Below, one piece after another: positions 4,534 through 32,252 of a stretch of 32,252 bases of DNA. Every line of letters starts with the position of its first letter. The stretch's first letter is position 1. A program made the translations under genes and the position numbers. The stretch is from positions 1 through 32,252 of the forward strand of contig CASERY010000108.1 of NCBI GenBank assembly GCA_949290385.1. The letters run 5' to 3'. The DNA is from an uncultured bacterium. Its GTDB lineage: Bacteria > Verrucomicrobiota > Lentisphaeria > Victivallales > UBA1829. The notes under the pieces are model-generated. The model was not told the DNA's origin, made no database searches, and saw only the letters and a list, made by a program, of their open reading frames with translations.

Positions 4534-7500
4534 TCAGGAAGGCATTTTCAAGGCATTCCACGCCTTTTCCAGCAAAGGTGGAGAAACCTTCCGAAGCGTC
4601 TGAAGTTCAGGGGTGAAAGCGGAAATTCTTGCTTCTTCCAGATACAGGAAAAAGTCTGCCAGGGATTTCATTCTCTCAAGAGGCTGGTCCATTGATAAGA
4701 CCAGATGAAATTTCCGGAGGTAAGGATCCAGCCATAATCCCTTTTCCCTGTCTTTGGCAGGAGACTGGAGAGCCCGTTCCAGACGAACTGTCAGAGATTT
4801 CAGATACCTCCGGTACTGCTGTACAGCTTCAGGTATACGCAGAAATCCCTTTCTGAACAGAAAATCCAGTTGGCGGGATGCATCCATAAAAGTAAAAGAC
4901 TCCTCCGGCAGGCGATCCAGCAGTCTATCTGCTTTTCCCAAGGCTTCATGAATCTGTTCAAGCATTTCCAGATTCTCTGCAACCAGTTCAGAAAGGATGT
5001 CCCTTGATTCTTCACAAAGTTTTTGAAACTGAGCACCCGAACGAATTTCCACAAGCGGGATCCGCAAGGCTTCTCGAATGGCATTGTTCATAAAATCATC
5101 CTGCCATTCCGAATATTTCTGGAAAAGAGCAAGCTTCATGGAGGAGGGAATCTTCAAAGAATTTTTTAAATAACGCACCAGACTGCCCTGCTCCATCCGG
5201 TACAGTCTGAAAATTCCACGCTCATGCTCAGCAGCCGCCTCATCCGAATTCAGGAACAATGAAATGCCAACGGTTTTTTCAGATTCATCCGTCAACGCAG
5301 GATACACCAAGCGGCTCCGGTCGTCAGCAACCGGAAGAGAAATGGGCAGGACATCCGCTCCTGGCCAGGAAGTGCATCCGGAAACTTCATAGAGTTTGGA
5401 AATCTTGTGGGCACTGGAAATTTTTGAACCTGACTCACGACTTTCCGGCATTTCTGTAACGACCCGTAAAATCCGACCGTTCTCAGAACTGTGCACCGCA
5501 AGTTTCATGCGAAGGAATTCCGGCAGATATTCATCTTCCATACCGGACGGATCTGCGATTTCCTGTCCATAAACGGATTTCAGAAAATCTGCCAAAGCTG
5601 AAGAAAGTTTCTGGTCCATCAGGATATTACCCTTTCTGCATTCCTCCACAAACAGTTCCGTACAGTCTGAAAGCGGCATCAGCTCTTTCCGGATACTTTT
5701 CGGCAGACCCCGGAGCATATAATCCACCTTCCAGCCCAAGTATCCCGGTACAAGATAATCCAGCACATGTCTTGGAAGAAGATTCAATTCATCCTCCCGG
5801 GCATGAAGCGTAATGCCATCATCTTTCTCTCCAGGATCAAATTCATAGACAAGTTTGAAATGCAGTCCGGCAAAACTCAGTCTGTCCGGGAAATCCTCCT
5901 CCCGTACAGACTCCGGAAGAGGAAGTATATAGTCCTCTTTTCTGGGTGCAAAGGCCTGTTTGTGTTTCTGCCAGCAGCGCTTCAGCGATTCCGCACTGTA
6001 AGCCCAGGACGGCAGCACGGAGTCAAAAAAGAGGTACAACGCCTCACTGTCCACCAAAGAATCTTCTCGCCGCATTTTCTGTTCCAGGTGTCGCGCATCC
6101 GCCAAATCTTTTTCGAATGCCTGCACCCAGGGAATTCCCGGCAGATGCACTTTTCCCGTCACAAGCCCTTCCCGGATAAAGACCTCCCGGGCGGCCTATG
6201 GATGAATCGGACCATAATGACGCCGTCTCCCAGGATGAATCACCAGCTGCCCGGCCATAACTTTTTCCCTGGCATACACAAATCCCGATGTGGCATCCCA
6301 ATGAACCGAATCATAGTGCTTCGTGCAGATATGGGGAGCTGTCTCCTCCAGCCATTCCGGCAGAACCACACAACAGTTGCGGGCAAAAACACGGCTGGTC
6401 TCCACCAGAGCAAAAGTCAGAATCCATCTGGGAGGCGCTTTCAGACGTGTTAAAGAAGACCCTGGAAACAGCAGAAAAGAACGTCCGTTCATATCCTGAT
6501 ACATTTTGGTTTCCGGATTCAGACATGCCAGCTGCCGAGGCAATCCGCTCATAAAAGACTTGTGAATATCGTCCTTCCGCCATGAATGTTCCTCTTGTTC
6601 AAGAGATTTTGACAAGTGTTCCGGATGAAAATCTGGAAACAGCTCCAACAGATCTTCTGCGAGGTTGCTCCATTCCCGCATTCTTCTAAAATTCAGAAAA
6701 TATTTTATGCAGAATCTCCGCAGGGCTGAGTTGGAAATATGTCGTTCTCTTTCTGTCGCTTTCCATAAATTCAGGATTGTCAGAAAATCCGATTCCGGAT
6801 CCAGAAATTCCTTTCTTGAGGCATCGGCTTCCGCCGCTTTTTCAAACGGACGCTCCCGTGGATCCTGTATGGAAAGAAAAGACACCGCAGCAATCAGTTC
6901 CGGTAGCACCTGTCTCTTTTTTCCTTCCAAGAGCATTTTCCCCAGATGCGGATCCAGCGGAAACTCTGCCAGAGTCCATCCAACCGACGTAAGATGCTGT
7001 TTTAAATCAATGGCATGAAGATCTTCCAATGCACGAAGCCCTTCCCGTATGTGCGCATTTCCCGGCGGATCCACGAAAGGAAAATCTTGAATAGGCGGCA
7101 GTTTCAAAGCAGCCATCTGGAGAATGACTCCGGCTAGAGAAGAACGCTGAATTTCCGGATCGGTATACGGATCCGCATTTGCCAGATCCTCCTCGCTGTA
7201 CAAATGCACACAGACACCATCCCGCAACCGCCCGCAGCGTCCTCGACGCTGGCGTGCACTTGCCTGGGAAATCATTTCAATCCGAAGCTCCTGAATGCGG
7301 CTTTTCGGATTATAGCGACTGAGACGCACCAGACCGGAATCTACAACAAAGCGAATCCCCGGAATCGTCAGGGAAGTTTCCGCGACATTGGTAGACAGGA
7401 TAATCCGCCTCCGGGTGGAACGTTGAAAAATCCTGGCCTGGTCCGTGGAACTCAAACGGCCGAACAGCGGAAGAATTTCTGTACGGGAATACCGTCGTCC

Positions 7501-8451
7501 CTCCAGGAAATCCAATGCCTCACGGATTTCCCGTTCCCCCGGCAGAAAAACAAGAATGTCTCCGTCGGAATCCAGATCAGACAGAAAATCAATTCCCCGG
7601 GCAACAGCTTCAGAAAGTTCTTCATCCTTGTCCGGCTCCAGAAAACAATCCTCCACAGGAAAAAGCCTGCCTTCCACTTCAATTACCGGAGCATCGTCGA
7701 AAAAAGCGGCAATCCTGGAGGATTCCAATGTGGCCGATGAGATAATCACACGAAGATCTTTTCTGCGCTGCAGCAGAAGTTTCATATATCCAAGCAGAAA
7801 ATCGATATTCAAACTGCGCTCATGTACTTCATCCAGAATAATACAGTCGTACTGAAGAAGATCAGGATCTTCCCTGGTCTCTGCCAGAAGGATGCCGTCT
7901 GTCATGAACTTAACTACCGTTTTGTCGCTTGTACGGTCATCAAAGCGAACCTTGTAGCCGACACCCTGTCCAGGAGCTGTATGCAGTTCAGCACTCAGAC
8001 GCTGAGCCAGCGCTGATGCAGCAATTCGCCTTGGCTGTGTACAGCCGATTCTTCCAGTGCGTCCGAACCCTTGTTTCAACGCGGCTTTGGGCAGCTGGGT
8101 CGTCTTCCCGGACCCAGTGGATCCGCATACGATTACAACCTGGTGATCCCGGAGAGCTTTTTGGATTTCAGGGATTTTTTCAGTAATAGGCAAATCCTTC
8201 GGGAACTCACAAACCAGGCTGTCCGCAACCGGAACCAAAGAACGGTCCTGAGCCAGTACAATCCGATTCAGAAAAGAAGCTGTCTGCTGAGTAAATTCTT
8301 GCACTTTCAACTGGTCGGGAGGCAGTTCCATCAGGCGAAAAAGACGGCGGCGTGCTCCTTCCAGTCTTTTTCTGTCCGAAAGCCGGAGGCGTGCCCATAC
8401 AGCATTCACTTGCTCCTGCAATAAGCAGCAGGAAAAACTTTGTTTTCTCAT
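4534..8451 (-). CDS. hrpA: ATP-dependent RNA helicase HrpA, one gene read through an in-frame UAG
   Basis: This is a DEAH-box 3'-5' RNA helicase; in E. coli HrpA acts on mRNA and stalled ribosomes. Walker A GSTGSGKT is at 110-117, DEVH at 207-210 and SAT at 239-241. The motif VI-type QRRGRCGR is followed by HA2/OB regions, and the C-terminal half is the HrpA-specific DUF3418-type domain. A TAG (6196-6198) falls at residue 752. The same frame continues directly with AAREVFIREGLVTGK, matching E. coli …IDPALCRELFIRHALVEGD…. The combined length of 1,305 residues agrees with E. coli HrpA (about 1,300). The downstream piece has no start codon or ribosome binding site until 12 codons past the TAG. 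No frameshift or other stop is present, and it ends at TGA. The alternative is two split pseudogene pieces, which I consider less likely given the other TAGs. Confidence 0.93.
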
Positions 8452-9708: not shown

Positions 9709-10506
9709 ATGGAAACTCCAGCCTCATGGACAGGCGATTATTCGCTTCAGCTTAATGAGATTGCTCCGGATGGGAAAATCCGAACTTGCGTACTCTTCAA
9801 CATTCTTCAGGATGCTGCAGGGAAGCATGCAGATCAGCTGGGGCTGGGGCTTCGTCAACTTCGAGAAAACCATCTGATATGGGTACTTTCCCGTATTCGC
9901 CTTCGCATGGACGAATATCCCGAATACGGGGACAGTATCCGGATTGTTACGTATCCCAGCGGTTTTGACCGGCTTTTTGCCTATCGACAGTTTGAAATGC
10001 TTTCCGCTGACAGTGGAAAGCGTCTCGGGGTAGCAGGCAGTGCCTGGTTGACACTGAACCCAGAAAACTATCATCCTGTTCCGCCTGAAAAATACATCCG
10101 GAACAGAAGGCCATGGAATCAAAACCGGGAAATTTTCTTTCAGAAAGATCTCGGAAAAATCCATATGCCGCAGGAACAGATGTCCAGCCTGATTCTGCCG
10201 CATCGCATTTCCTGCACAGAAATTGATTATAACAATCATTTGAACAACGCCTATTATGCGGTCTTTACAGAAGATTTTCTGGGAGAAGCCTCCAAGTCCC
10301 TTGTGCGAATGCGGGATGTCCAGATTAATTTCAATGCTTCAACCGCTTTCCAGGATACCTTATACTGTCAAGGTGTTTAGGAGAATGCTTCCGGTCTTTT
10401 TTATGTGGAAGGCATTCAAAAAAGTTCTGGAAAAAATGCTTTTCAGGCACATGGGATCTTTGAGAAAGTGCCCATGCCTTCTAAATCTTGTTCAATCAAC
10501 CGCTGA
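9709..10506 (+). CDS. acyl-ACP thioesterase (FatA/FatB-like), read through an in-frame UAG
   Basis: This enzyme hydrolyses acyl-ACP to release free fatty acids in the cytosol. The 265-residue protein has the double hot-dog layout. The first domain contains VLFNILQDAAGKHADQLGL and HLIWVLSRIRLRM. The second contains the catalytic pattern EIDYNNHLNNAYY, with the D-x-N-x-H residues of the family. A TAG at 10378-10380 (residue 224) interrupts the second hot-dog. The frame continues with ENASGLFYVEGIQKSS…QAHGIFEK to TGA at 10504-10506, which supplies the missing last strands. No ribosome binding site or start follows the TAG. The ribosome binding site before ATG 9709 is weak. The gene converges on lysR, with 28 bases between their ends. 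Confidence 0.88.
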
Positions 10507-10534: not shown

Positions 10535-11437
10535 TTATATGTCCTTTTTTTTCTCCGGACAGCAGTCTCTAATTTGATCCAGAAAAACTGCAGCCGCTTT
10601 TGAAAAAACCTGATATTTCTTCCAGACAAGGCTGGAACCTGATTCCAATACAGGATTCAAGGGTAGAAAGCAGAGATTTTCCCCAGCGATATTTCCAAAT
10701 TCCAGTGTAAGTGCACTGGCAAGGCCTCTTTTTACAAGAAGAGAAGCGTTTCCAATCAGATTGTGCACTGCTACAATATTCAGTTTTTCAAGAGTTCCCC
10801 CAAACCATTCCACGTAAGGATTCCTCACCGCCTTGCTGTGCAGATCACATCTGGAACAAATCAGCGGAATATTCCGCAAATCTTCCGGAGAAACAGACCT
10901 TTTTCCTGCAAGCGGATTATCAGTACGTGTCAGTAATCCCCAACGGTCCTTGCCAGGTAGTGTTATGCTTCCATATTTTGTAACATCCACAGGTTGTAGA
11001 AGAATACCGAAATCAAGCAGTCCGTTATCAAGCCGGCTCATCACATCATCTGCAACGCCTGTATATAAATGATATCGTATGTTAGGGTAAATACTATGGA
11101 GTTCACAAATTGCATCTGCAACTAATTCCATTGCCTGACATTCTCCCCCGCCAATATAAATATCTCCGGCAATATTTTCGCCAATTGAATTGAACTCAGA
11201 TTCTGTTTTCTATACCAGTGCCAGAATTTCTTCTGCACGTTTACGCAGAAGAATCCCCTCCGGTGTCAATGTGATATCATGAGTTTCGCGGTTCAGCAGT
11301 TTCTGTCCAAGTTCCTCCTCCAGATCCATCATCTGTCTTGAAAGCGTCGGCTGTGTGACATGCAGATATTTTGCAGCACGGGTGAAACTGCGTTCTCTGG
11401 CAACCGCCAGGAAATAACGAAGTAATCTGAGCTCCAT
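10535..11437 (-). CDS. LysR-family transcriptional regulator, read through an in-frame UAG
   Basis: This is a DNA-binding regulator controlled by a small ligand. The N-terminal winged helix-turn-helix reads MELRLLRYFLAVARERSFTR and then AAKYLHVTQPTLSRQMMDLEEELG, followed by the coiled linker. TAG (11210-11212) falls at residue 76 in that linker, in EEILALV-TAG-KTESEF, where LysR proteins usually carry Glu, Gln or Asp. The frame then continues through GDIYIGGGECQAM and the whole effector-binding domain to TAA. The combined 300 residues is the normal LysR length. Alone, the first piece has no ligand domain and the second has no DNA-binding domain. AAGGA precedes the ATG. Divergent from the redox operon at 11834, it is the likely regulator of that operon and of itself. 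Confidence 0.93.
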
Positions 11438-11712: not shown

Positions 11713-11833
11713 ATCATGCGGAATATACCGCTGTAAAGGGACAAATAAATAGAATCCAATTCACTGATTGAATTCCCTTGAGGAATCTTCGGCAGATAGA
11801 AAACAAAACACTTTAAAAAAGGAGAACAGCAAA

Positions 11834-12427
11834 ATGATCAAAAAAGCAATGGCGTGTATGATGGCTGCGGCAATGATTTCAGGAGCCGGATGTGCCGACA
11901 ACAAATCCTTCAGCACTTCATCAGAAAAGGTGGCTGCTGAACCCTCCAAGGTGCTTATTGCCTATTTTTCATGGAGCGGCAACACTCGTACTGCTGCTGA
12001 ATACATCCAGAAAGCCACCGGGGGTACGCTTTTTGAAATAAAACCTCTTAAAGCCTATCCGGATGACTACGATGAGTGTGTGGATCAGGCAAAAAAGGAA
12101 TGCCGTGACGGATTCAAGCCTGAACTTGCCTCAAAAGTGGATCAAATGGATCAATACGATGTCATTTTTGTCGGAAGCCCGAACTGGTGGGGAACCATGG
12201 CGCCTCCCGTTGCCACCTTTTTAACATCTTACGATTTCAAGGGGAAAACGGTAATTCCATTTTTCACGCATGGCGGCGGCGGAGTGCAGAACTGCGAACG
12301 GGATGCCCATCAGTTGTGTCCGGATTAGAATATGCCAAAGGCTGGAGTTTTTTCCGGAAGCCGCATTCAGCGTTCTGAGGAGGATGTCATCCAGTGGGTT
12401 AATAACTCTTTAACCATCCATAAGTAA
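11834..12427 (+). CDS. flavodoxin, predicted lipoprotein, read through an in-frame UAG
   Basis: This is an FMN-binding electron carrier. The 197-residue protein starts MIKKAMACMMAAAMISGAGC, a lipoprotein signal with the lipobox Cys at residue 20, so it is probably anchored on the outer side of a membrane. The FMN phosphate loop AYFSWSGNTRTAAEYI follows, then DVIFVGSPNWWGTMAPPV and GKTVIPFFTHGGGG. TAG 12326-12328 (residue 165) follows AHQLCPD. The frame continues NMPKAGVFSGSRIQRSEEDVIQWV, the final strand and helix expected in this family (…GxxFSGS…W). Start 11834 is chosen for GGAGA (11821-11825) eight bases upstream and for the signal peptide. It is the first clear gene of the redox operon and ends 14 bases before the CMD-cupin ATG. 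Confidence 0.9.
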
Positions 12428-12441
12428 TTATGAGGAAAACT

Positions 12442-13503
12442 ATGAAAAAGATTGCTCTGCTCGGAATTCTTCTTGCTTTCTTCTGCACTGCGAATCAAAC
12501 GGAGGCTAAAAATTCCATGAATACACTTGACGCAAAAGAAACTGCCCTTGTTGCAATCAGCATGTACACAGCACAGGGGGATATGCCCAGACTGAAACAA
12601 GCTCTCAGTACAGGCCTTGATGCCGGCCTTACAGTCAATGAAATCAAGGAAGTGCTTGTCCAGCTGTACGCTTACTGTGGCTTTCCGCGCAGTCTGAATG
12701 CCCTGGGGAACTTCATGCAGCTTACTTAGGAGCGTGAGGCAAAAGGCATTCAGGATGACTTCGGGAAACTGCCTGGTCCGCTTCCTGCGGGGACAAGTCT
12801 CGAGTTCGGGACAGTCAACCAGACCAAGCTCTGTGGTGCTCCCGTTCAGGGGAAACTTTTTGATTTTGCCCCCGCCATTGATGAATTCCTTAAAGCACAT
12901 CTCTTCGGGGACATCTTCGCACGTGACAACCTCGACTGGCGTACCCGTGAAATCGCAACCATTGCCGCTCTTGCCGCCATGACAGGCACTGAAAGCCAGC
13001 TCAATTCCCATATCGCCATAGGGAAACTCAACGGCATTACGGATGAACAGGTTTCCCAAATTCTGTCAATGGTCTACGGCAATGAACTTGGTGTTCCGAA
13101 GATCAGTCCATTTCCTGTTGGCAGTGAAAATTCTGCTTATGCACAGTATTTCTCAGGAAAATCCTATCTTGCTCCAATGACAACCGACAAACGGCTCAAT
13201 GTTCCTGTCTCCAATGTCTCCTTTGAACCCGGATGCAGAAACAACTGGCACAGCCATACCGGAGGCCAGCTTCTGATTGCGGTTGGAGGCACAGGGTTCT
13301 ATCAGGAACGCGGAAAAGAAGCTCGGAAACTGCTCCCGGGTGATGTGGTTGAAATACCGCCCGATGTAGAGCACTGGCACGGTGCTGCCCCGGACAGCTG
13401 GTTCTCCCATCTTGCCATCGAGTGCAATCCATCTTCCAACAGAAACACCTGGTTGGAACCTGTCAGTGATGCAGATTATCAAAGCGCAACCGCTCAAAAA
13501 TAA
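12442..13503 (+). CDS. carboxymuconolactone-decarboxylase-like / cupin fusion protein, read through an in-frame UAG
   Basis: The 353-residue protein has a signal peptide (MKKIALLGILLAFFCTANQTEA). A first CMD-type helical domain spans about 30-105 (…GLTVNEIKEVLVQLYAYCGFPRSLNALG). A second spans about 130-205 (WRTREIATIAALAAMTGTESQLNSHI). A cupin at about 250-340 has metal-type histidines in NWHSHTGGQ, EHWHG and FSHLAI. TAG 12727-12729 (residue 96) lies in NFMQLT-TAG-EREAKGI, where related proteins read …LEERKAKGI, pointing to Glu or Gln. The frame then continues for 257 codons to TAA. ATG 12442 is preferred because GAGGA lies just before it. The substrate is unknown; an exported role in quinone or aromatic redox chemistry is a guess from the neighbours. 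Confidence 0.9.
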
Positions 13504-13520
13504 ACTGGAAATTCATCCTT

Positions 13521-14828
13521 ATGAACTTACTTTGGAAAAAATGTCTGTTCGCTTTCTTCGCTGCAGTGTTGCTGCTTCCTCTGTCGGGAGCCGAACTTTC
13601 TCAGGAATCCACCCTGTTCCTTACTGAAAGACCTGCTGACGCACAGCAAACGATGACGAAGGCTGTCCGTGATTAGATTGCCGGAAATCTTGACCCCCTG
13701 AACAAGGTTCGGACTTCCACGCTCAAGGATACAGAACCCCCTCCAGGAATCCGAGTGGAAAACACGTTCACGGACGGAAGAAAAATCCGTTTTTATTTTC
13801 CGTCTGAAAAACCGGGGAAAAGCATTGTTCTCTATCTGCATGGCGGAGGCTGGACTATAGGAAGCATTGAAGGCAGTGCCCGAATCTGTGGAGACCTGGC
13901 AGCTGAGACAGGGATCGATATTGCCACCTTGGATTATCGTCTTGCTCCGGAATACAGAGCACCGGCAGCGTTGGATGATGTACTCGCCGCTGTGCAGATG
14001 CTTCAGGACCGGGGATATGAGCGCATTTATCTTGCCGGGGACAGTGCCGGGGGCAATCTTGCTGCATGCGCAGGCTGGAAACTGCGCTCGGAAATTGCAG
14101 GTCTTCTTCTTTACTACCCGGTCGTACTGGCAAAACAGGATGGATCTGAATCCTGGAAAGAATATGCCGAAGGATTTGGACTTGACGGAGATCTTATGGA
14201 TGCATTCAATGAATCCTATGCTCCTGGGAAATAGGCGGAAATGCCTGAAGTTTCTCCGCTTCTCGCAAAAGATTTTTATCATTATCCGGAAACCCTCATT
14301 GTGGCTGCGGAATGTGATGTTCTGCACGATCAGGGAAAAGCATTTGCCAGTCTTCTTGCTCAAAACGGTATTGCGGTAACCCACATAACTATCCCGGGAA
14401 CGCTCCATGCATTCATGACTTATCCGGGAATGGAAAAAGCCTATCGCTCAGGCTTGGATGCTGCAGTAAAATTTCTTCAAAAAAAGGAGAAAGAAACCAT
14501 GAAAACATCGGTAACTCCGGCAAGCATTGTCCGTCTCTCCCGCATTGAAGTCGATCCTGCACGGCTTCCGGAGTATCTGACTCTTGTAACAGAATGCGGG
14601 AAAAAATCCATGGCTCAGGAACCCGGAGTGTGGATGATGTATTCCATGCAGGAAAAAGCACATCCAGAAAGGATCACCATTCTGGAAATCTATGCAGATC
14701 CAGCCGCTTATGAGAACCATATCAAAACCGAGCATTTTCAAAAATACAAGAATGAAACCCGGGAAATGGTCCGCAAGCTGGAACTTCTTGACCAGAATGC
14801 GCTGATTCCCTCGATGAAAATGAAATAA
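13521..14828 (+). CDS. secreted alpha/beta hydrolase fused to an antibiotic-biosynthesis-monooxygenase domain, read through two in-frame UAGs
   Basis: The 435-residue protein starts MNLLWKKCLFAFFAAVLLLPLSGA, a signal peptide. The first TAG is at 13674-13676 (residue 52). The hydrolase core follows with oxyanion HGGGW at 107-111 and nucleophile Ser175 in GDSAGG. A second TAG at 14232-14234 (residue 238) is followed by the acid Asp266 (AECDVLHDQG) and His296 (PGTLHAF). The signal peptide, nucleophile and Asp/His of the triad therefore lie on three pieces that join only if both TAGs are read. The C-terminal 109 residues form a YgiN/ABM-like domain (IVRLSRIEVDPARLPEYLTLV). The junction has AAGGAGA (14484-14490) eight bases before ATG 14499, so the ABM domain may also be made alone. 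It ends in tandem TAA TAA. Confidence 0.88.
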
Positions 14829-15290: not shown

Positions 15291-16655
15291 ATGAAAAATC
15301 CGTATAAAATATACCGATTCACACGAATTGGAATATCCCTGCTTTTTCTGGCATGCGCAGGAATGGCATTTTCAGGATTCAGCAGGATTGCAGATGTTCT
15401 GCTGAAAATGCAGTTCGGTCCGGCTCTGATGAAATGTTTTGCCGCCTTTTCAGCGGGAGCTCTTGCTTGTGTCCTGTCCATTGCACTGATAACAATTCTT
15501 TTCGGACGTTTCTATTGTTCATTTTTCTGCCCGTTCGGTATTCTGCAGGACTTTTTCGGATGGATTTCACGACGCAAGGCAAAAACTGTGCCGGATTTTC
15601 GGAAGACACGTTATGTAATCGGAGGAATTTCTTTCGGAATGCTTATTGCAGGATGGACAGTGCCCTTCCTGTTTCTGGATCCTTACTCAAACTTCGGGAG
15701 AATTGTCGGGGCTTTTACAGCCGGAGGATTCCTGCCGCTTCTGCTTATTGCAGCTCTCGCATTCTGGAAAAAAAGAATCTATTGCACCACTGTCTGTCCG
15801 GTGGGAATGTTGCTGGGACTGCTGGCAAAACACAGTCTTTTCCGTCTGCATATTGCCGAAGAAAACTGTGTTAAATGCGGTATATGCGCAGGCTTCTGTC
15901 CATCCGGATGCATCGATTCTTCAAAAGGCACCCTCGACAATGAACGCTGTGTTCGCTGTATGAACTGCCTCGCAGAATGCCGTACACACGCCATTCATTT
16001 TTCCATGCCGAACTTCAGAGAAAAAGCAGAAAATGCAAAAAATACGGAAAAAGCCAGCCTTCCAGTCGATCAAAGCCGTCGGGCATTCCTGATCAATGGC
16101 ACGGTGCTTCTTGCCGGTCTTGCAGCAGGAATCGTCCTCGCAAAAACCGGAATGAACAAATAGATTCAATACGCAAGAAAACTTTGGATCCTGCCGCCGG
16201 GGGCCGGAGACATCCAGCGTTTTGCATCCAAATGTACAGCCTGTCAGCTTTGTACAGCGAATTGTCCGGCACAAATTATTCTTCCCTCCCCGGGAGGGGC
16301 AGGCCCTGTTTCACTGGATTTGTCAAAAGGCTTCTGCCAGTATAACTGCAAACGCTGTTCAGAAGTGTGCCCCACCGGTGCAATCCGTCCGCTAACCCTT
16401 GCTCAAAAACAGAAAACGAAGATCGCCGAAGCAAAATTCAATCCGCGTGTCTGTATTGTTTTCCAGGACGGGGAAAAATGCGGCAGATGCGCAAAAGTCT
16501 GTCCGACAAAAGCTATAACACTGCGCACAACAGGCGCCCCCCGATTGAACTCGACACTCTGCATTGGCTGCGGAGCCTGTCAGACAGTCTGTCCAGCCCC
16601 CGAAAAGGCCATGACTGTCCACGAAATTGAGAAACAAATATTTCTGAAGGTTTAA
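15291..16655 (+). CDS. NapH/NapG-like membrane polyferredoxin with internal twin-arginine motif, read through an in-frame UAG
   Basis: The 454-residue electron-transfer protein has several parts. The N-terminal membrane part carries two NapH-type loops (FYCSFFCPFGILQDFFG and IYCTTVCPVGMLLGLLAK). Two 4Fe-4S motifs follow (CVKCGICAGFCPSGC and CVRCMNCLAEC). Then comes a twin-arginine-like segment, QSRRAFLINGTVLLAGLAAG, near residue 260. TAG 16161-16163 falls at residue 291, directly after that helix. The same frame goes on with LPPGAG and four more Cys clusters (CTACQLCTANCP, CKRCSEVCP, CGRCAKVCP, CIGCGACQTVCP) to TAA. It resembles NapH joined to a Tat-exported NapG-type ferredoxin. larB starts two bases after the stop. 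The physiological partner is unknown. Confidence 0.88.
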
Positions 16656-23252: not shown

Positions 23253-24137
23253 ATGAACAAAATATCCGGATGGAAAATAGTTTTTCTTTTTCACCTATGG
23301 ATTCTGTCCTTTTTTGGTATTGCCATTCCCAATGCGTTGTCTTCGGACGACAGTAGCAGCACTCAGCCTCTGAGCAGAAATATGGAGCTTCTGAATTTGA
23401 TTACAGGAAATACCGATCAAAAAGATTACGTCCCGCGAGCCAATGCAGTTCTTTTGCTGAACGACTATCTTACCGAAGAGGAAATTGCATCTGTCAAAGA
23501 ATTTCTCTATCAGAAGAAACTGGATCTTTCGAATATGCAGATCAATTCCATCAAAAATGATCTGGTTATTGTTCTTATGAGACAAAAAAAGCCAGTTCAG
23601 GATCTGGCCCTGTGGCTGATGGAAATGTTTTCTGATCCGGAATACGGCGATACATGGAGAGATTACTGCATGCAGTTTCTCGGGCAGATTTATCCAGATA
23701 CATCAGAACAGGTCCGGGAAAAAATCCGCGGTGTTTTTCAGAAAGGCATGAAAGAAAGAGCCAATGGAATTGCCGGAGCTGCCATGATTGCAGTGAACCG
23801 CAACATAAATGATCCCCTGATCGACCGGAAAGCCCTAGCCAGGACAGCCTGTGAAGTTGCCGTATCGGAAGATTCTCCAGATTATCTGAAAATAACTGCT
23901 GTTCAAATTGCCGCCTTGAATGGAGAAAAAGACATTCTGAATTTCTGCGAAGAAGTGCTGACCAGTAAAAATGCGAAATATTCCGTTCAGTTAAAAATGT
24001 CAGCCATGTCTGCCATCGGAATTCTTGGAGATTCGGAAAAACTCCCTCTTCTCCGCCGTTATGCAGGCATGAGCGATATTCGTTTGTAGGTATCGGCAGA
24101 GTCTGCCATTGAAAAGATTGAAAAAGAAGCATTTTAA
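23253..24137 (+). CDS. secreted HEAT-like repeat protein, read through an in-frame UAG
   Basis: The 294-residue protein has a signal peptide (MNKISGWKIVFLFHLWILSFFGIAIPNALS), so it is exported. The rest is alpha-helical with HEAT-like pairs: RANAVLLLNDYLTEEEIASV, GIAGAAMIAVNRNINDPL, YLKITAVQIAALNGEKDIL and LKMSAMSAIGILGDSEKLPLLRRYA. TAG 24087-24089 (residue 279) follows MSDIRL. The frame goes on VSAESAIEKIEKEAF to TAA, completing the last helix with the typical A-x-x-A-I-x-x-I pattern. AAAGGGGG (23237-23244) lies eight bases before the ATG. It lies 35 bases before the giant gene, so they are co-transcribed. The role is unknown; a scaffold or assembly partner for the giant protein is a guess. 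Confidence 0.82.
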
Positions 24138-24172: not shown

Positions 24173-27100
24173 ATGAAACGACATTTTCTCTGCAAGATTC
24201 TTCTGCTTTCATTCCTCATCCATCTGCATGCTTATGGGGAGGAACCCAATCTCCAAGTTGAAAACGTAAGGGTATCGGATTTGTCCTATACCAGAGTGGT
24301 TCTTGCCTGGGATGCCCCGGCAGGATCGGAGTCCGTTTCCAGCTACAAGATCTACCGGGATGGTGAATATCTAACAACTGTATCCAATACGGTTTATGCG
24401 GACAATTCAGTTGTAAAGGGAGCATCCCATGTGTACCGGATTGCGGCTGTTTCGCAGAATGGCGATGAAATGGAATTGTCTGCTCCGGTTACCGTAAAAA
24501 CCTTTGAAGTCTTTAATTTCAATGACAGAGATGCTGTTGAACAGACAGAGCTTGAAGACGGGTCTAAAGTTCCGGGAGATACAACCGCCGCATTGATGAC
24601 GGGTTGCTTCTCTCTGCAGGAAGTTCTTGCAGATCTTCCCGGAACCCCCTTCGGAAATGCAGACGCCTTGGATCCTGCTGCCGCACAGTTCATCCAGGAG
24701 GAACAGGCCTATTCTGCATCTGTCCAGGATGGATCCATCGGTGAAGCCGGTCTTGCCGGAGCTGAATCCGCCATCGGTACAACTGCCACAGGAAATGTAT
24801 ATGTCAATAACCAGATTCTTGAGCTTGCAAGACGTTATCAGAATACAGGAGACAACGAAAAAGCTCTCATCCTTTATGAACTGGCTTTAGATTCTCTCGG
24901 AATTTATGAGGGTTCTACGGCTTATATTCTGGACCGCATTGCATCCATTCAAAAATCCGGATTGACGCAGAATTCAACCTTCCTTCAGACACAAGCCGCT
25001 CTTGCTAATGCAAGAACGACCTATCTGCGTTTCTTCAATACCTATTTCCCGGATTCAACCAGCAACATGGCTGAATTTATTCATCGTTCCATTGCTTCCA
25101 TGTACTTCAGAAAATTTCCAGTTCTCCTTTCTTATGAGAATTACAGTCTGACCGATTTCAACAACGCGAAAGCGGCAGCAGCAGCCCTGACAGGCATCAA
25201 AGCCTCCCCGGCCAATATGAAACTGGAAAGCATGATTCTTGCATGGGAACTGAAGGAATTTGACCTGGCTTCAAGACAGGATGCTGAACATTCGCTCGAT
25301 GGAACCGTTACAGTCAAAAATATTTCTGCTGAAAACGGCCTTGCTTATCTTTTCCCGGGAACGCCCTATACCGATGAACGCAGCTTCACGATTCAGGACG
25401 GATCCTGTGTCATTCCTGTATATGCCGGACATCTGTACAGTTTCTCTTTCTCTCTGCCGATCTCAGGCGGAGATGCCCTTCAGTATCAAATTTCACCTGT
25501 TGCCTGGCAGTCTGGAGTCAAACAAACCTTCGACTACCGGAATGCCGGTATTGCAGGCAACTGTCCTGCAGGCACATCCATGATAGAGCTTGCTATCCAA
25601 AAACCGAATTATCCATATAACCTTTCCGCAGTCAAGGATGTTGATGTATTTCATTTGACCTGGAGTTATGTTCCGCCGGCCGGAGGATCTCTTGATCATT
25701 TCAAGGTCTTCTGCGGAGACAGCGTCATTCGGACAGTAAGAGATCCGCAGGCCCTGTCCATTCCTCTGCAGAACAGCAGTGCCGTCTATACCTACAAGGT
25801 TGTAGCCTATGATGCCTCCGGAATGCCGTCTCAGGCCAGCAGCACCCTTGAAGTTCTGCCGGGAGACATGACCGTTTATTCCGATTACTACGCATGGAAT
25901 CTTGAACATTTTGGAGATCAGACTGTTTATGCCACCGATGATCCCGATCAGGATGGCATGGACAATTACCGTGAATTTCTGTTCGGTTCAGATCCGACAC
26001 TTCCTTTTGCCGATGACATGTCCCTTGAACGGGCAACCATGGGCCAGATCAAACTGATTCTTCCAGATGCGGATGAATCTTCTATTATCTATGGTATTAT
26101 GAGAAACGACACCCGCCTGGCTGATCAGCAGTCAACCTCCTTCACAGATACTCAGCTTTTACCAGGAGGCAGTTACACATACCGTGTCAAGATTTTTGCC
26201 AGTGACGGCACCCCTCTGACAGACTGGAGCAAAGGTCTGACGGTAAAAACCCAGTCTCCCACACTTCCACAGGCGGATATTGCGGCTTACAAAACCATTA
26301 CAGATTCCTTTATTAATACCGTACCGGAAAATTATACAGGCGCCTCCTTGCAATCTGCAGTCCAATCTGCTGTAGCATCCGCTACAGGCATAGCCGCAGA
26401 TCTGGGAAATACCGATGCCGAAAAACTTGAATCCATTACTGAAAAAGAACTGGCCGCAATCAATGCATTCCGTGCGGAACATTCTGCACCGATGACCAGT
26501 GAAGAACTCACACTGTTAAATGCATTGATCTCCCATTACTTCGGGAACGTTTCCTATGATGATGTCTATCTCTATATGAAACTGCTTGATCTTGGAGACC
26601 AGTACTATACCGATTATCTTGAAGACACCTCCAAAACCGAAAACCTGGACAAGGCAGTCGCTCTCTATGAAATTGCCCTGGGTTTCCGTCCGGCCACAGA
26701 AGAAGCACTTTTTACCGCACTTCGCAGACTCGGGGATTTCAAACTTGCAGAATATCCTGCCGCTTTGAATGATACTGAACGAATCGCTGTGCTGGAATCC
26801 TATCGAGATACCGTTCTGGCATTTGCCACAGCCTATCCGGATTCCGAATCCTATATGATGAAGCTTCTTTACGGATTGATTGTCAATGCAAATTTCAAAC
26901 ACTTCCCCGAACTTTTGAAATATTCAAACTATCATACGGATTTCTTCAACCACACCCTGGATGCAGCAGAACAGGGAATCATGATGGCTCCGGATAAGTA
27001 TATCTACATCCTTCGGAAAAATCAGATTTCCGCATGGAAACTCGGTACGCTGACAGTGTCAGCACCCGTGCCGGAAGGTTCCACCCGCTGTCCGGGGACC

Positions 27101-30100
27101 TTGATCATCCGCAATGTCAGTGCCGAAGAGAATCCTTCAGTTATTCCCATTGGAAGCGTTTTTGTTGATAACAGAGAATTTGATTTAAATGGCAGTTCTC
27201 TCACCGTGCCGGTCTATGAAGGACACCAATATGAAGTTTCTGCAGTTTTTGCTGTCCCCGGAGGCAATCCTCTGGTTTACAATCTGGGCAAAGTAACATT
27301 CAAGCCTGGAGAAAAAATGGTTTATACGCCGGAAGGCAACACCGTGATTGACCTGGATTCCCAGGATGCTTCCTCGGAATTGTCTTTCTCGGCTGCTGTG
27401 CCGTCTGTTCCCTATAACCTGTCCGCAGAGTTAAGAGAAAACGATACGTTCGATCTCTCCTGGGACTGGACTCCGGCAGGAGCTTTCATTGCCGATCACT
27501 TTGAAGTCTATCAGGGATCCGAAGAAGTTGCTTCAGTTCAGGGTACAGAAGCATCCGGACTCAGCCGGGCGTATAGAGAAGACAATGAATACACCTTTAA
27601 AGTCCGTGCAGTTTCTGCAGATGGAACTTCTTCAGAATTCAGTGGGGCTATTACAGTTACACCTTCCGATGACAATGAACTTTACCAATACCATCTCTGG
27701 AGTCTTGAGCACTTCGGCGAACTTGTCCCGCAGGACGGAGATCCTGACAATGACGGTCTGAGCAATTATCAGGAATTCCGTCTTGGTTCGGATCCGAATA
27801 CGGCTCCTGTCTCGGATTCAGGCGTAAAAATCAATGGTGCAGTCAACGGATACTGTGCTCGCTACTACGACGGAGTCTTTACAGACATTCCCGACTTCTC
27901 CAGCCTGACTCCATACCAGACAAGTGTTCTGACAAACTTCTCCACCACACCTGGAAATATTCTTTCTTCCGGAAGAGGTGAAAGTTTTGCAGCCTCCTTC
28001 TCCGGATATTTCATTGCGGAAGTTTCCGGTGTGTATCGCTTCTACCTTGAGGCCAACGATGTGGCCCGTCTCTATATAGACGGACACCTTGTAGAAGAAT
28101 CCAGAACCAATCAAACCACAATCAATCGCACAACTGAGATTGACCACTATCTGCTGGCAGGCACTCATACCATCTATATTGAGTATCTGCAGACTGCCGG
28201 ATACGGTTCTTTAAATCTTGCCTGGAGCGGTCCTGATTTCCAGAAATGCGATATGGACCAGACTCAGGTCTGGCATTTGAATCAGGAAGATATCGGTCTG
28301 AATGAAATCATTGAATGGCAGAAAGATTCTGATTTTGACGGAGTCCGTGATCTGCTTGAAATCCAGCATGGAACGGATCCATTGAATCCGGATTCTGACG
28401 GAGATGGACTCTCTGACTATGAAGAACTCTATGTTTATCAGACTAACCCTCTTCTTGCAGACAGCGATGGAGACGGCGTTTCTGATGAAGAAGAAGTCAA
28501 ATATATCCTGTCCAATCCGCTCACAGCAGATTTCAATGGCAACAATGCACTTCTCTCTTCTGTAAACGGTTCTGAAGCCTCTGCCACGACAGGAACCTGG
28601 GAAAGAAATGGAGATTCTCTCCGTTGCGCTATCCACACTGGATCAGCAGCGTATTCCATGCAGATTCCTTCAGAGGGGACCTATGCAGTCAAATTCAATG
28701 CTCGTGAAGGCCGTTATCTTGAAAATGGAGAAGAATCTACTTCCAGATTCACTATCAAATGCTATGTTAACGGAACTTACGTTATGACAAGAACCCTTGA
28801 AACAGTCAACAATATACAGAATTCAATGCTGTTCTATCTTCCGCAGCTTCCTGCTGGAAATGCAGACATAAAGTTTGTCTGGAACAATGTTGAAGAAAAC
28901 ACGTTCCTTCAAATAGATTCTGTTCAGCTGATGTCTCTGGGCGGACCTGACACAAATGCAAATGGTGTTGCGGACTGGATTGACAATCGTCTTGAAAAAT
29001 TATCTGAATTGAATATTCCTTCAGAATCAAAGACGTCTCCACTCTGTTTTGAAGGGAACCGCAATGCTGCCGGAAATCTTTCCATCTCAATCAAAGGGAA
29101 ACTTGGCAGCTCTGAAAAACTGCCCTGGCTGAACGGCATGGATGTGATCTGGCTGGATTCCGGACTTTCAGATGCTGAAACAGACAGTTATACTCCCTAT
29201 ATTCCATCCGCACGAACTGCTCTTGAAAGCACGTATTATGCAGATGTTCCACTCTATCAGGATGGAAATACACAAATTACGGTTTCCACAGCCGACGGCA
29301 CCTCTTCCACACAGGAAGTTGAGTGGGTCCGTACCAATATCCTGGAAGAAACAGCCATCACCATCCGCAAAGGAGATGCGCTCAAACTTGCAGCCTTTAC
29401 AGATGGCTCTGTCCAGGGAAGCGCCACCATTTCGGTGGAAGGAATGACAGCAGAAATATCGGAATCAGAATTTGTGGTTCATACGTTTAACAATGCTGGT
29501 ACGTTCAGTGTTTCTGCAGAATTTGTTCCTTCCGATGGATCCGCAGCCACATCCAATGTACTTGCAATTACAGTTGTCTCTGGGGAATTCTCCGGATCAC
29601 CTTATGTTATGCTTGGATTCGAAAGCAACTGGTTGAATCCGAATCTTCCGGCATCTGTCTATCTCGACTATGACCCGGAAATCACACTCTTCAGAACTGC
29701 AGCTGATCCCGGATCGAGAATCGTGTTTTACGGCAAAGAAATTGGAGAGAAACACATTCTTGCAAGACTTCAGGAAGACGGTCCCATTCTTGACAGCACC
29801 ACATTGGATGTCATCGACTGCCGGACACACCATGAGGAAGGCTACTATAAACTCCTCGAAACCTTCAGCGACGGTTCAAAACTTGTTGAAGGCAAGATTA
29901 TCATGTCTGACATTCCCGCTGATCTTAGAATCATACTCTCGATCAGCACGGCCGGAACCACGTTCCTTGACGGTTCTGTAATCAAAGAACTCACGGCTGC
30001 AGACTTTGATGAAAATGGTGTCTGCCGCTTCCAGCTACTGAAAGCTCCGGATTCACCTTCGTCCACCTGTCATAACATGGACTTCTATCAGGGCGATAAC

Positions 30101-30124
30101 AAGCTGTTCAGTTACCAGAGATAA
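24173..30124 (+). CDS. giant secreted multidomain protein (FN3, TPR-like, PA14, TSP3 calcium repeats)
   Basis: A 1,983-residue exported protein (signal MKRHFLCKILLLSFLIHLHAYG). Approximate order: FN3 at 25-110; copy 1 of a duplicated unit at 210-612 (TPR-like helices, beta domain, FN3, Ca-type loop DPDQDGMDNYREF); a further FN3-like domain at 625-690; copy 2 at 795-1212 ending DGDPDNDGLSNYQEF; PA14 at 1225-1357 (ARYYDGVF…YRFYLEANDVARLYIDG…HTIYIEYLQ); TSP3 repeats at 1385-1444 (DSDGDGLSDYEE, DSDGDGVSDEEE); a CBM-like beta domain at about 1465-1600; then Ig-like C-terminal domains. PA14 and CBM-like parts suggest binding of surface glycans. GGAGG lies nine bases before the ATG. No TAG in nearly 6 kb; it stops at TAA. 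The RHS gene follows after 35 bases. Confidence 0.9.
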   Translation: MKRHFLCKILLLSFLIHLHAYGEEPNLQVENVRVSDLSYTRVVLAWDAPAGSESVSSYKIYRDGEYLTTVSNTVYADNSVVKGASHVYRIAAVSQNGDEMELSAPVTVKTFEVFNFNDRDAVEQTELEDGSKVPGDTTAALMTGCFSLQEVLADLPGTPFGNADALDPAAAQFIQEEQAYSASVQDGSIGEAGLAGAESAIGTTATGNVYVNNQILELARRYQNTGDNEKALILYELALDSLGIYEGSTAYILDRIASIQKSGLTQNSTFLQTQAALANARTTYLRFFNTYFPDSTSNMAEFIHRSIASMYFRKFPVLLSYENYSLTDFNNAKAAAAALTGIKASPANMKLESMILAWELKEFDLASRQDAEHSLDGTVTVKNISAENGLAYLFPGTPYTDERSFTIQDGSCVIPVYAGHLYSFSFSLPISGGDALQYQISPVAWQSGVKQTFDYRNAGIAGNCPAGTSMIELAIQKPNYPYNLSAVKDVDVFHLTWSYVPPAGGSLDHFKVFCGDSVIRTVRDPQALSIPLQNSSAVYTYKVVAYDASGMPSQASSTLEVLPGDMTVYSDYYAWNLEHFGDQTVYATDDPDQDGMDNYREFLFGSDPTLPFADDMSLERATMGQIKLILPDADESSIIYGIMRNDTRLADQQSTSFTDTQLLPGGSYTYRVKIFASDGTPLTDWSKGLTVKTQSPTLPQADIAAYKTITDSFINTVPENYTGASLQSAVQSAVASATGIAADLGNTDAEKLESITEKELAAINAFRAEHSAPMTSEELTLLNALISHYFGNVSYDDVYLYMKLLDLGDQYYTDYLEDTSKTENLDKAVALYEIALGFRPATEEALFTALRRLGDFKLAEYPAALNDTERIAVLESYRDTVLAFATAYPDSESYMMKLLYGLIVNANFKHFPELLKYSNYHTDFFNHTLDAAEQGIMMAPDKYIYILRKNQISAWKLGTLTVSAPVPEGSTRCPGTLIIRNVSAEENPSVIPIGSVFVDNREFDLNGSSLTVPVYEGHQYEVSAVFAVPGGNPLVYNLGKVTFKPGEKMVYTPEGNTVIDLDSQDASSELSFSAAVPSVPYNLSAELRENDTFDLSWDWTPAGAFIADHFEVYQGSEEVASVQGTEASGLSRAYREDNEYTFKVRAVSADGTSSEFSGAITVTPSDDNELYQYHLWSLEHFGELVPQDGDPDNDGLSNYQEFRLGSDPNTAPVSDSGVKINGAVNGYCARYYDGVFTDIPDFSSLTPYQTSVLTNFSTTPGNILSSGRGESFAASFSGYFIAEVSGVYRFYLEANDVARLYIDGHLVEESRTNQTTINRTTEIDHYLLAGTHTIYIEYLQTAGYGSLNLAWSGPDFQKCDMDQTQVWHLNQEDIGLNEIIEWQKDSDFDGVRDLLEIQHGTDPLNPDSDGDGLSDYEELYVYQTNPLLADSDGDGVSDEEEVKYILSNPLTADFNGNNALLSSVNGSEASATTGTWERNGDSLRCAIHTGSAAYSMQIPSEGTYAVKFNAREGRYLENGEESTSRFTIKCYVNGTYVMTRTLETVNNIQNSMLFYLPQLPAGNADIKFVWNNVEENTFLQIDSVQLMSLGGPDTNANGVADWIDNRLEKLSELNIPSESKTSPLCFEGNRNAAGNLSISIKGKLGSSEKLPWLNGMDVIWLDSGLSDAETDSYTPYIPSARTALESTYYADVPLYQDGNTQITVSTADGTSSTQEVEWVRTNILEETAITIRKGDALKLAAFTDGSVQGSATISVEGMTAEISESEFVVHTFNNAGTFSVSAEFVPSDGSAATSNVLAITVVSGEFSGSPYVMLGFESNWLNPNLPASVYLDYDPEITLFRTAADPGSRIVFYGKEIGEKHILARLQEDGPILDSTTLDVIDCRTHHEEGYYKLLETFSDGSKLVEGKIIMSDIPADLRIILSISTAGTTFLDGSVIKELTAADFDENGVCRFQLLKAPDSPSSTCHNMDFYQGDNKLFSYQR

Positions 30125-30159
30125 TATAAACATACTCACAATACGAAAGAGGTATGCTC

Positions 30160-32252
30160 ATGAATACCATTTACAAGATGAAAAAGTTTGCGTTGCTTCT
30201 TGCAGTTCTGTTTCTGATCCCAAGTACTTATGGAGGCACGAACAGTCCCACAACAGGTCCTGGGAAAGATGAAAATGCCCAAGGTAAGGAATGTTGTGGA
30301 AGCAAAAGTCCAACAAACCCTAGTGAATGCAATGACTGTATAAGCTATCAAATTTAGTTTGGAAGAAACGGGTATGGAGTGGATTTATCCACGGGCTCAT
30401 TGAGTCTATACTCTCTTAATCCAACGCCTTCGATTGCGACCCCTGGAAAACTTGTGTATACACACCCTCTTTTTACAAGACTCCTGAGAACGCAGACGAG
30501 TGATTTGTATGCAGATGTCAATCTTGCTGTTTTCCTGAATCAGGGACGCGGAGAAGTGCCGTATGCATTCCGGCGCAATGAATCCATCGGCTATCCGGAC
30601 GGTGTTGCAGCGGCAAACAGCAATGCCCGTCTGGAACGGCTGGATGCCCAGATGAATCCCATGACGGGAACCAATCCGGCTTACTATCGGCTGTATGATG
30701 AAAGCAATGGATATCTTCTGATCAACGCATCGACACAAGCAACTGAATCTTACACGACTGCCACAGGACGAGTGATTACAGTCTCCTCTCCGGAAGTTCG
30801 TCTGGATATTGTGTATGATGAAGCAGGCTCCATTCGCCAGATCCATTCTGGTCTGGATGGACTTGCAGACATTGTCACAGAAAGTTCCCAGCGTTATCAG
30901 ATTAACCTTTATGAACCTTCTCAAGTTGGTTCAAAGGATTCAGGACTTTATACGTTTACAGGGTCTCCGTATGCGGTATATGATGTCCAGACAACCAATT
31001 CTGCTGGAACGGAAGTAATCATCAACCGCATTGTTGGAGAGAACGAATATCTCACCACCTTCACGTATAATGATTCCATTGGAGACTGGGTTCTGGTCAA
31101 TGGGGATACTCCGGCAACGGCTGTGACCTCTGAAAGGACAAGAACATGGCTGAATGCGAACCAGACACAATATGAAACCACTCTTCGCAAAAAAGCTCCA
31201 GACGGTACCGTTGTCTCTGAAAGTGTTGAAATCATGGAAGTCAAAGATTACGGCGACTTTCCGATCAAGGAGTACGACGGTCCCAAGAGCTACGGCATTC
31301 TGACAGAAAAAACGTATGACTTGAATCCCTCATCCAACAAACTTGGAAATTACGCAAAGATCACCAGCATAAAATATCCTACCGGCAACTGGGAACGCTT
31401 CACGTATGAGACAGTGAACGGCAAAGGAACCGGCCGCATGATTAAGAGTGTTTCAGCGTGGAAAAACAATGCGTACGGCACGGCGGACAATCTGAACCGT
31501 GAAAACATCTATACCTATTCATCCACGGATCTCTTTGACCAGCGTCCTCGGACAGTTGAAGAAAAAATAACGGGCGTTACAGTCTCCAAAACATATTACG
31601 ACTACATAGTGGATTCGGAGAGTGGAGAATATCTTGAAATTGAAGAATCCGCTGCAGCTCCGGATGCAGCCTATGGTGCGACAGGAAATTTGCGGACAAC
31701 AAAGCGCTATTATGCCCCGGATGCGGCTTCCCAGTTGGCCGGTCGCCTAAAAAGCATTGTTTATCCTGATCAGACCTGCGACACATATACCTATGACTAC
31801 GGCACCTTCAGTGCCGGCACAGACTTTGGCTCCTATGTGTTCAATGTGGACAATACAAACGGTTACGCCCTGCGCGTAATGGTTACCCATGGCACAGTTT
31901 CAAATCCTGACGGCATAGCGAATAAAACGGAACGAACCGTAGCTATTTATGATTCGTTCGGTGATATGGTTGCCACAGAACGCTATATTTATACAGGATC
32001 CGGATATGAAAAAGTTGCCTGGAAGGAATTCCGTTATGATGGAGAACACCGGGAACTTGCGACATGCGACAGTGTGGGACGGCAGACCGAAACCACATGG
32101 AATTGCTGCAAACGTTCTTCCTTTACAGACTGGGACGGCACACAGTATACTTATGAATACGACACACTTCTTCGTCTGATTGCGGTAAATAAACTCGGTA
32201 TTGGAGAAAACAGTTCTGTTTATCGGACTGAATATGTTTATAGTGCGGATGG
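30160..32252 (+). CDS. RHS/YD-repeat protein, partial, read through an in-frame UAG
   Basis: The gene is cut by the right edge; 697 codons are visible. It has a signal peptide (MNTIYKMKKFALLLAVLFLIPSTYGG) and a Cys-containing segment (ECCGSKSPTNPSECNDC). TAG 30355-30357 is at residue 66. The frame then stays open for 631 codons to the edge: FGRNGYGVDLSTGSLSLYS, typical of the start of RHS proteins, then YD-type units (VYDEAGSIRQIHSGLDGL, YEYDTLLRLIAVNKLG). ATG 30160 is preferred to 30154 because GAAAGAGG (30145-30152) lies seven bases before it. RHS proteins form large shells around C-terminal toxins or anchor surface polymers; the C-terminus is not in view. It is probably translated in operon with the giant protein. 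Confidence 0.88.

Follow-up and report, generated by a model that had tools for sequence, protein, structure and literature searches.

In the nuclear genomes of ciliates and some other eukaryotes UAG is a sense codon, most often for glutamine, the single release factor eRF1 being altered rather than deleted and suppressor tRNAs usually being present; TAG-recoded phages (code 15) likewise read UAG as Gln by means of suppressor tRNAs inside prokaryotic cells, and in some archaea TAG specifies pyrrolysine genome-wide. In Bacteria, release factor 1 (RF1, encoded by prfA) is the only factor that terminates translation at UAG. A 2021 Codetta screen of more than 250,000 genomes lists only UGA among the known bacterial stop reassignments, as Gly in Absconditabacteria/Gracilibacteria and as Trp in Mycoplasmatales and insect endosymbionts, while the five codes newly described in it involve arginine codons (PMC8629427). 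In Escherichia coli without RF1, UAG is decoded as Gln, Tyr, Asp and Val (PMC6207430). Within the part of the literature that was searched, we found no description of UAG reassignment on a bacterial chromosome.

The window analyzed here, a stretch of 32,252 nucleotides, is contig C108 of a Victivallales (Lentisphaerota) MAG of 2.68 Mb, 78% complete and with 2% estimated contamination; the host is an uncultured relative of Victivallis, and this one MAG underlies all the data. We consider it highly probable (about 93%) that this genome uses UAG as a sense codon in all its parts and that RF1 has been lost. The gene under study has the following layout.

13521..14828, forward strand: esterase ORF of 435 codons, stop TAA, with Abhydrolase_3 and ABM domains and two UAG codons, very probably sense
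13674..13676, forward strand: esterase codon 52, TAG; Ala in the nearest homologues
14232..14234, forward strand: esterase codon 238, TAG; mostly Leu in the nearest homologues

A preliminary description had presented this gene as a catalytic triad split over three frames by TAGs at residues 52 and 238, with every motif intact. Both TAGs are real, but the three pieces share one reading frame, and the ORF contains no frameshift. Translated with TAG as a sense codon, the ORF yields 435 residues with a hydrophobic N-terminus, followed by Abhydrolase_3 (residues 103-299; 183 bits against a curated cut-off of 25) and by a second domain that had been overlooked, Pfam ABM, within the last ~100 residues (337-410). 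The HGGGW, GDSAGG and Asp/His motifs are all present and conserved, and 18 homologues show no variation at Ser175, Asp266 and His296. The predicted structure of the joined protein (mean pLDDT 84.8) matches family IV esterases (6kmo, 2yh2, EST2) with a Foldseek probability of 1.00 and places codon 52 at the end of a helix (residues 41-53) and codon 238 inside another (236-240). Against the nearest relative, pN/pS is about 0.34/0.74, 0.20/0.76 and 0.16/0.68 for the three pieces; pN is well below pS in each, with no sign of relaxed selection, and since dS is saturated these low values reflect long-term constraint. Judged by this pattern, all three pieces are under purifying selection. The homologues are single uninterrupted proteins, not naturally separate ones, with 67-70% identity in Victivallales MAGs and 57-72% in the other genomes compared, and the esterase-ABM fusion is common to other Victivallales. 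Sequence and model together identify the gene product as a predicted exported, two-domain enzyme of the HSL type that works as one continuous protein. The earlier view that the continuous protein is the working form therefore stands, while the double readthrough invoked for it does not, as UAG is evidently no stop in this organism and RF1 is gone.

The TAG pattern is not specific to this gene: a minimum of eight further genes in the window show it too.

4534..8451, reverse strand: HrpA-type RNA helicase with DUF3418; TAG at codon 752 (6196-6198)
9709..10506, forward strand: acyl-ACP thioesterase; in-frame TAG at 10378-10380
10535..11437, reverse strand: LysR-family regulator; in-frame TAG at 11210-11212, with the HTH before it and the substrate domain after it
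11768..12427, forward strand: flavodoxin; in-frame TAG at 12326-12328, homologues mostly Ala
12430..13503, forward strand: carboxymuconolactone decarboxylase (CMD)-cupin protein; in-frame TAG at 12727-12729, homologues K/E/N/R
15291..16655, forward strand: 4Fe-4S membrane ferredoxin-type protein; in-frame TAG at 16161-16163
23253..24137, forward strand: secreted repeat-like protein; in-frame TAG at 24087-24089
30154..32250, forward strand: ORF open at the window end; in-frame TAG at 30355-30357

Among the genes of the window, the 18 ends that were checked all use TAA or TGA. The flavodoxin, CMD-cupin and esterase-ABM genes, each interrupted by one TAG or more, are closely spaced on the same strand (11768-14828) and likely form one operon. 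An ORF of 1983 amino acids at 24173-30124 has no in-frame TAG. A contig binned in the relative G015 (L123, G015:C5) holds the N-terminal half of an HrpA that is 64-66% identical to that of the window, against ~54% for other HrpA homologues, and has its own in-frame TAG; this contig may have strayed into the bin from a sister species that shares the code.

The census of stop codons covered 611 kb of the 2.68 Mb, compared with relatives and mostly with G008, a genome of the same family. Within the MAG's own genes, 73 TAG, 9 TAA and 14 TGA were found in frame per 59,959 distinct aligned codons, a TAG density of about one per 820 codons. Counted per alignment, 145 of 153 TAG lie at least 20 codons inside, against 2 of 9 TAA and 8 of 15 TGA; most of the interior TGA come from one weak match (L146), and most TAA and TGA fall there or at alignment ends. 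The reverse comparison gave only 2 TAG in 57,072 codons of G008, both within matches in which several TAA and TGA occur as well. The excess of in-frame TAG is thus far beyond chance. It affects rpoC (85% identical to G008), alaS, secY, mreB, dapA and rplJ (ribosomal protein L10), as well as ruvA (a gene identified from sequence) and prfB, the gene of release factor 2 (RF2) itself.

The TAG-bearing genes are spread over 22 contigs, and most share 36-85% identity with genes of Victivallales. This speaks against an artefact, i.e., contamination from a UAG-recoding organism such as a ciliate or phage, or sequencing error, and although the source is a MAG with an estimated contamination of its own, such an origin is highly improbable, all the more so as sequencing errors would also yield TAA, TGA and frameshifts. 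To the idea that the esterase is a pseudogene with two nonsense mutations, which its two in-frame stops would suggest under the standard code, we give practically no credence: the reading frame is unbroken, selection (saturated dS notwithstanding) has acted on all pieces, the same TAG-only pattern recurs in essential genes genome-wide, and RF1 has been deleted. Here the preliminary description, which had also argued against a pseudogene, was correct.

At the 138 aligned gene ends of the MAG, the first stop is TAA in 73 cases, TGA in 60 and TAG in 5, but four of these TAG lie at least 31 codons beyond the aligned end and the fifth is followed by a TGA three codons on, leaving no clear TAG terminator among them. 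Readthrough of bacterial stop codons has been proposed (PMC7918605), and programmed readthrough confined to the esterase and a handful of others, UAG otherwise remaining a stop, could account for the interrupted frames; however, with no clearly UAG-ended gene and no RF1 at its locus, it is extremely unlikely. In G008 the corresponding ends are TAA in 66 cases, TGA in 62 and TAG in 1 (n=129), so that UAG terminators were already nearly extinct there.

A TIGR00019 search of the MAG did not find RF1, matching only RF2, which is present, and a distant homolog. RF1 was scored at E 1e-100 among 97 genomes of the order (the MAG and others at least 85% complete), and 95 of the 96 others have kept it; G122 (92% complete, 8% contamination) is the sole other genome at this completeness without a match. 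In six relatives (L232, L234, L241, L242, L244, L248) rpmE, prfA and an ABC-transporter gene lie on one strand in the same order. On contig C43 of the MAG, only 411 bp, devoid of prfA, separate rpmE (944-1138) from this ABC gene, which is found from about position 1550; as these two genes are direct neighbors, the absence of prfA represents a deletion and not an assembly gap. The intervening segment (G000:C43:1139-1550, L252) gave no significant match to a prfA relic (E 0.07-0.5). A short stretch of it is weakly, non-significantly RF1-like (ERSxxR...RILKx).

No tRNA with a CUA anticodon is present among the 46 tRNAs of this 78%-complete assembly. Since other expected tRNAs, such as Ser-GCT, are also missing, a CUA tRNA may likewise be absent only from the assembly. 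Both tRNA-Gln(CUG) and tRNA-Gln(UUG) were found, with ordinary anticodon stems. A tRNA-like element that carries CTA as its anticodon and has a long variable arm (G000:C164:65-149, reverse strand; L129) was rejected, as its best match, to tRNA-Sec, does not rise above noise (19.4 bits against a gathering score of 47; genome-wide E 0.38).

For fitting the residue inserted at UAG, 60 TAG columns remained after local quality filtering. Rate-adjusted pairwise fits over these columns ranked Gln first and Lys next, with a divergence fitted at 4-5 times the value for sense codons, the TAG columns being unusually variable; under the strictest filter (29 TAG columns) Lys leads by 2 log units. Samples of equal size drawn from ordinary sense codons were all assigned to the correct residue. 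Background-normalised column scores put Gln in first place in three of the four settings; in the remaining one it ranks second, behind Ser. In a control mimicking tolerant sites, Gln columns were called Gln in 39 of 40 cases, but Lys columns were likewise called Gln in 29 of 40, so that Gln is favored yet not separable from Lys. On these alignments, the odds tilt slightly toward Gln as the UAG residue, with Ser and Ala next after Gln and Lys and, given the variable columns, not firmly separated from Gln either. At the TAG columns, PDB homologs have R/Q in AlaRS, mostly R/K in SecY and Q/R in MreB; in RpoC the TAG falls within an unaligned stretch. The few deeply covered TAG columns often show Ala, and Ala was considered from four of them and dropped, the wider column set favoring Gln or Lys. 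Gln at both esterase sites, as assumed in the joined protein proposed earlier, agrees with this genome-wide best guess, although homologs of the enzyme themselves have other residues at codons 52 and 238.

That Lys is among the better-scoring residues, and that UAG is the pyrrolysine codon, would fit genome-wide use of pyrrolysine as in some archaea; this is nevertheless very improbable, as no pyrrolysyl-tRNA synthetase (PylS) was found in the 78%-complete MAG or in 120 relatives. A stronger competitor is that UAG is unassigned following the loss of RF1 and is read by various near-cognate tRNAs, among them those for Gln, Lys and Tyr, so that it is carried only at sites tolerant of a mixture, a proposal to which we assign a minority share of the probability. 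Lack of a CUA tRNA among the 46, the broad mix of residues at TAG columns with a weak Q/K preference, and the several residues inserted in RF1-less E. coli (PMC6207430) are all in line with it; on the other side, a TAG in every ~820 codons, including those in rpoC, secY and prfB, requires fairly efficient decoding, and the tRNA set of the assembly is incomplete. The bacterium may, equally tentatively, be just past RF1 loss, with no dedicated UAG tRNA, ambiguous decoding and UAG kept where several residues are tolerated.

For the reading that we prefer, UAG as a sense codon genome-wide, we infer the sequence of steps, the inserted residue and the decoding tRNA as follows. UAG terminators would first have become nearly extinct in the family, whereupon prfA would have been deleted from its site between rpmE and the ABC-transporter gene, leaving RF2 to handle termination at UAA and UGA; UAG codons would afterwards have built up, mainly at tolerant positions. 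UAG would now be translated, most likely as Gln, by a CUA tRNA that the assembly lacks or, alternatively, by tRNA-Gln(CUG) pairing with UAG through a first-position G-U pair. Because UAG would be sense genome-wide, the esterase mRNA would be translated straight through into a single exported enzyme with two domains.

The preliminary description had thus caught one local sign of an altered genetic code. Many genes of this MAG are broken by standard gene calling, and its completeness of 78% may be underestimated, since marker genes are cut at UAG when genes are called under table 11. The route suggested is near-extinction of UAG terminators and then loss of prfA. The esterase itself has the HGGGW and GDSAGG motifs, the Ser/Asp/His triad and the fold of HSL-type (family IV) carboxylesterases but differs from them in its fusion to a C-terminal ABM domain.

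The MAG resembles genomes with ciliate-type codes in having UAG as sense, most often (here, probably) for Gln; those codes, in contrast, are eukaryotic with an altered eRF1, whereas here the genome is bacterial and prfA is deleted. Code 15 is found in phage genomes, while the MAG represents a cellular chromosome without RF1. Pyrrolysine archaea similarly use UAG as sense across the proteome, yet no PylS was found here. The bacterial UGA codes (PMC8629427) are likewise genome-wide changes from stop to sense on a bacterial chromosome, typically accompanied by loss of the corresponding release factor, but they concern UGA and RF2 instead of UAG and RF1, and the MAG, with 45% GC and at least 2.7 Mb, is neither very low in GC nor reduced, unlike the genomes that carry them. 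Recoded E. coli without prfA (PMC6207430) also has no RF1 and leaves UAG without a release factor; it was engineered, its genomic UAGs having been removed, whereas the Victivallales genome accumulated its UAGs naturally and, if our reading is true, constitutes with its UAG-bearing essential genes a natural counterpart of that strain.
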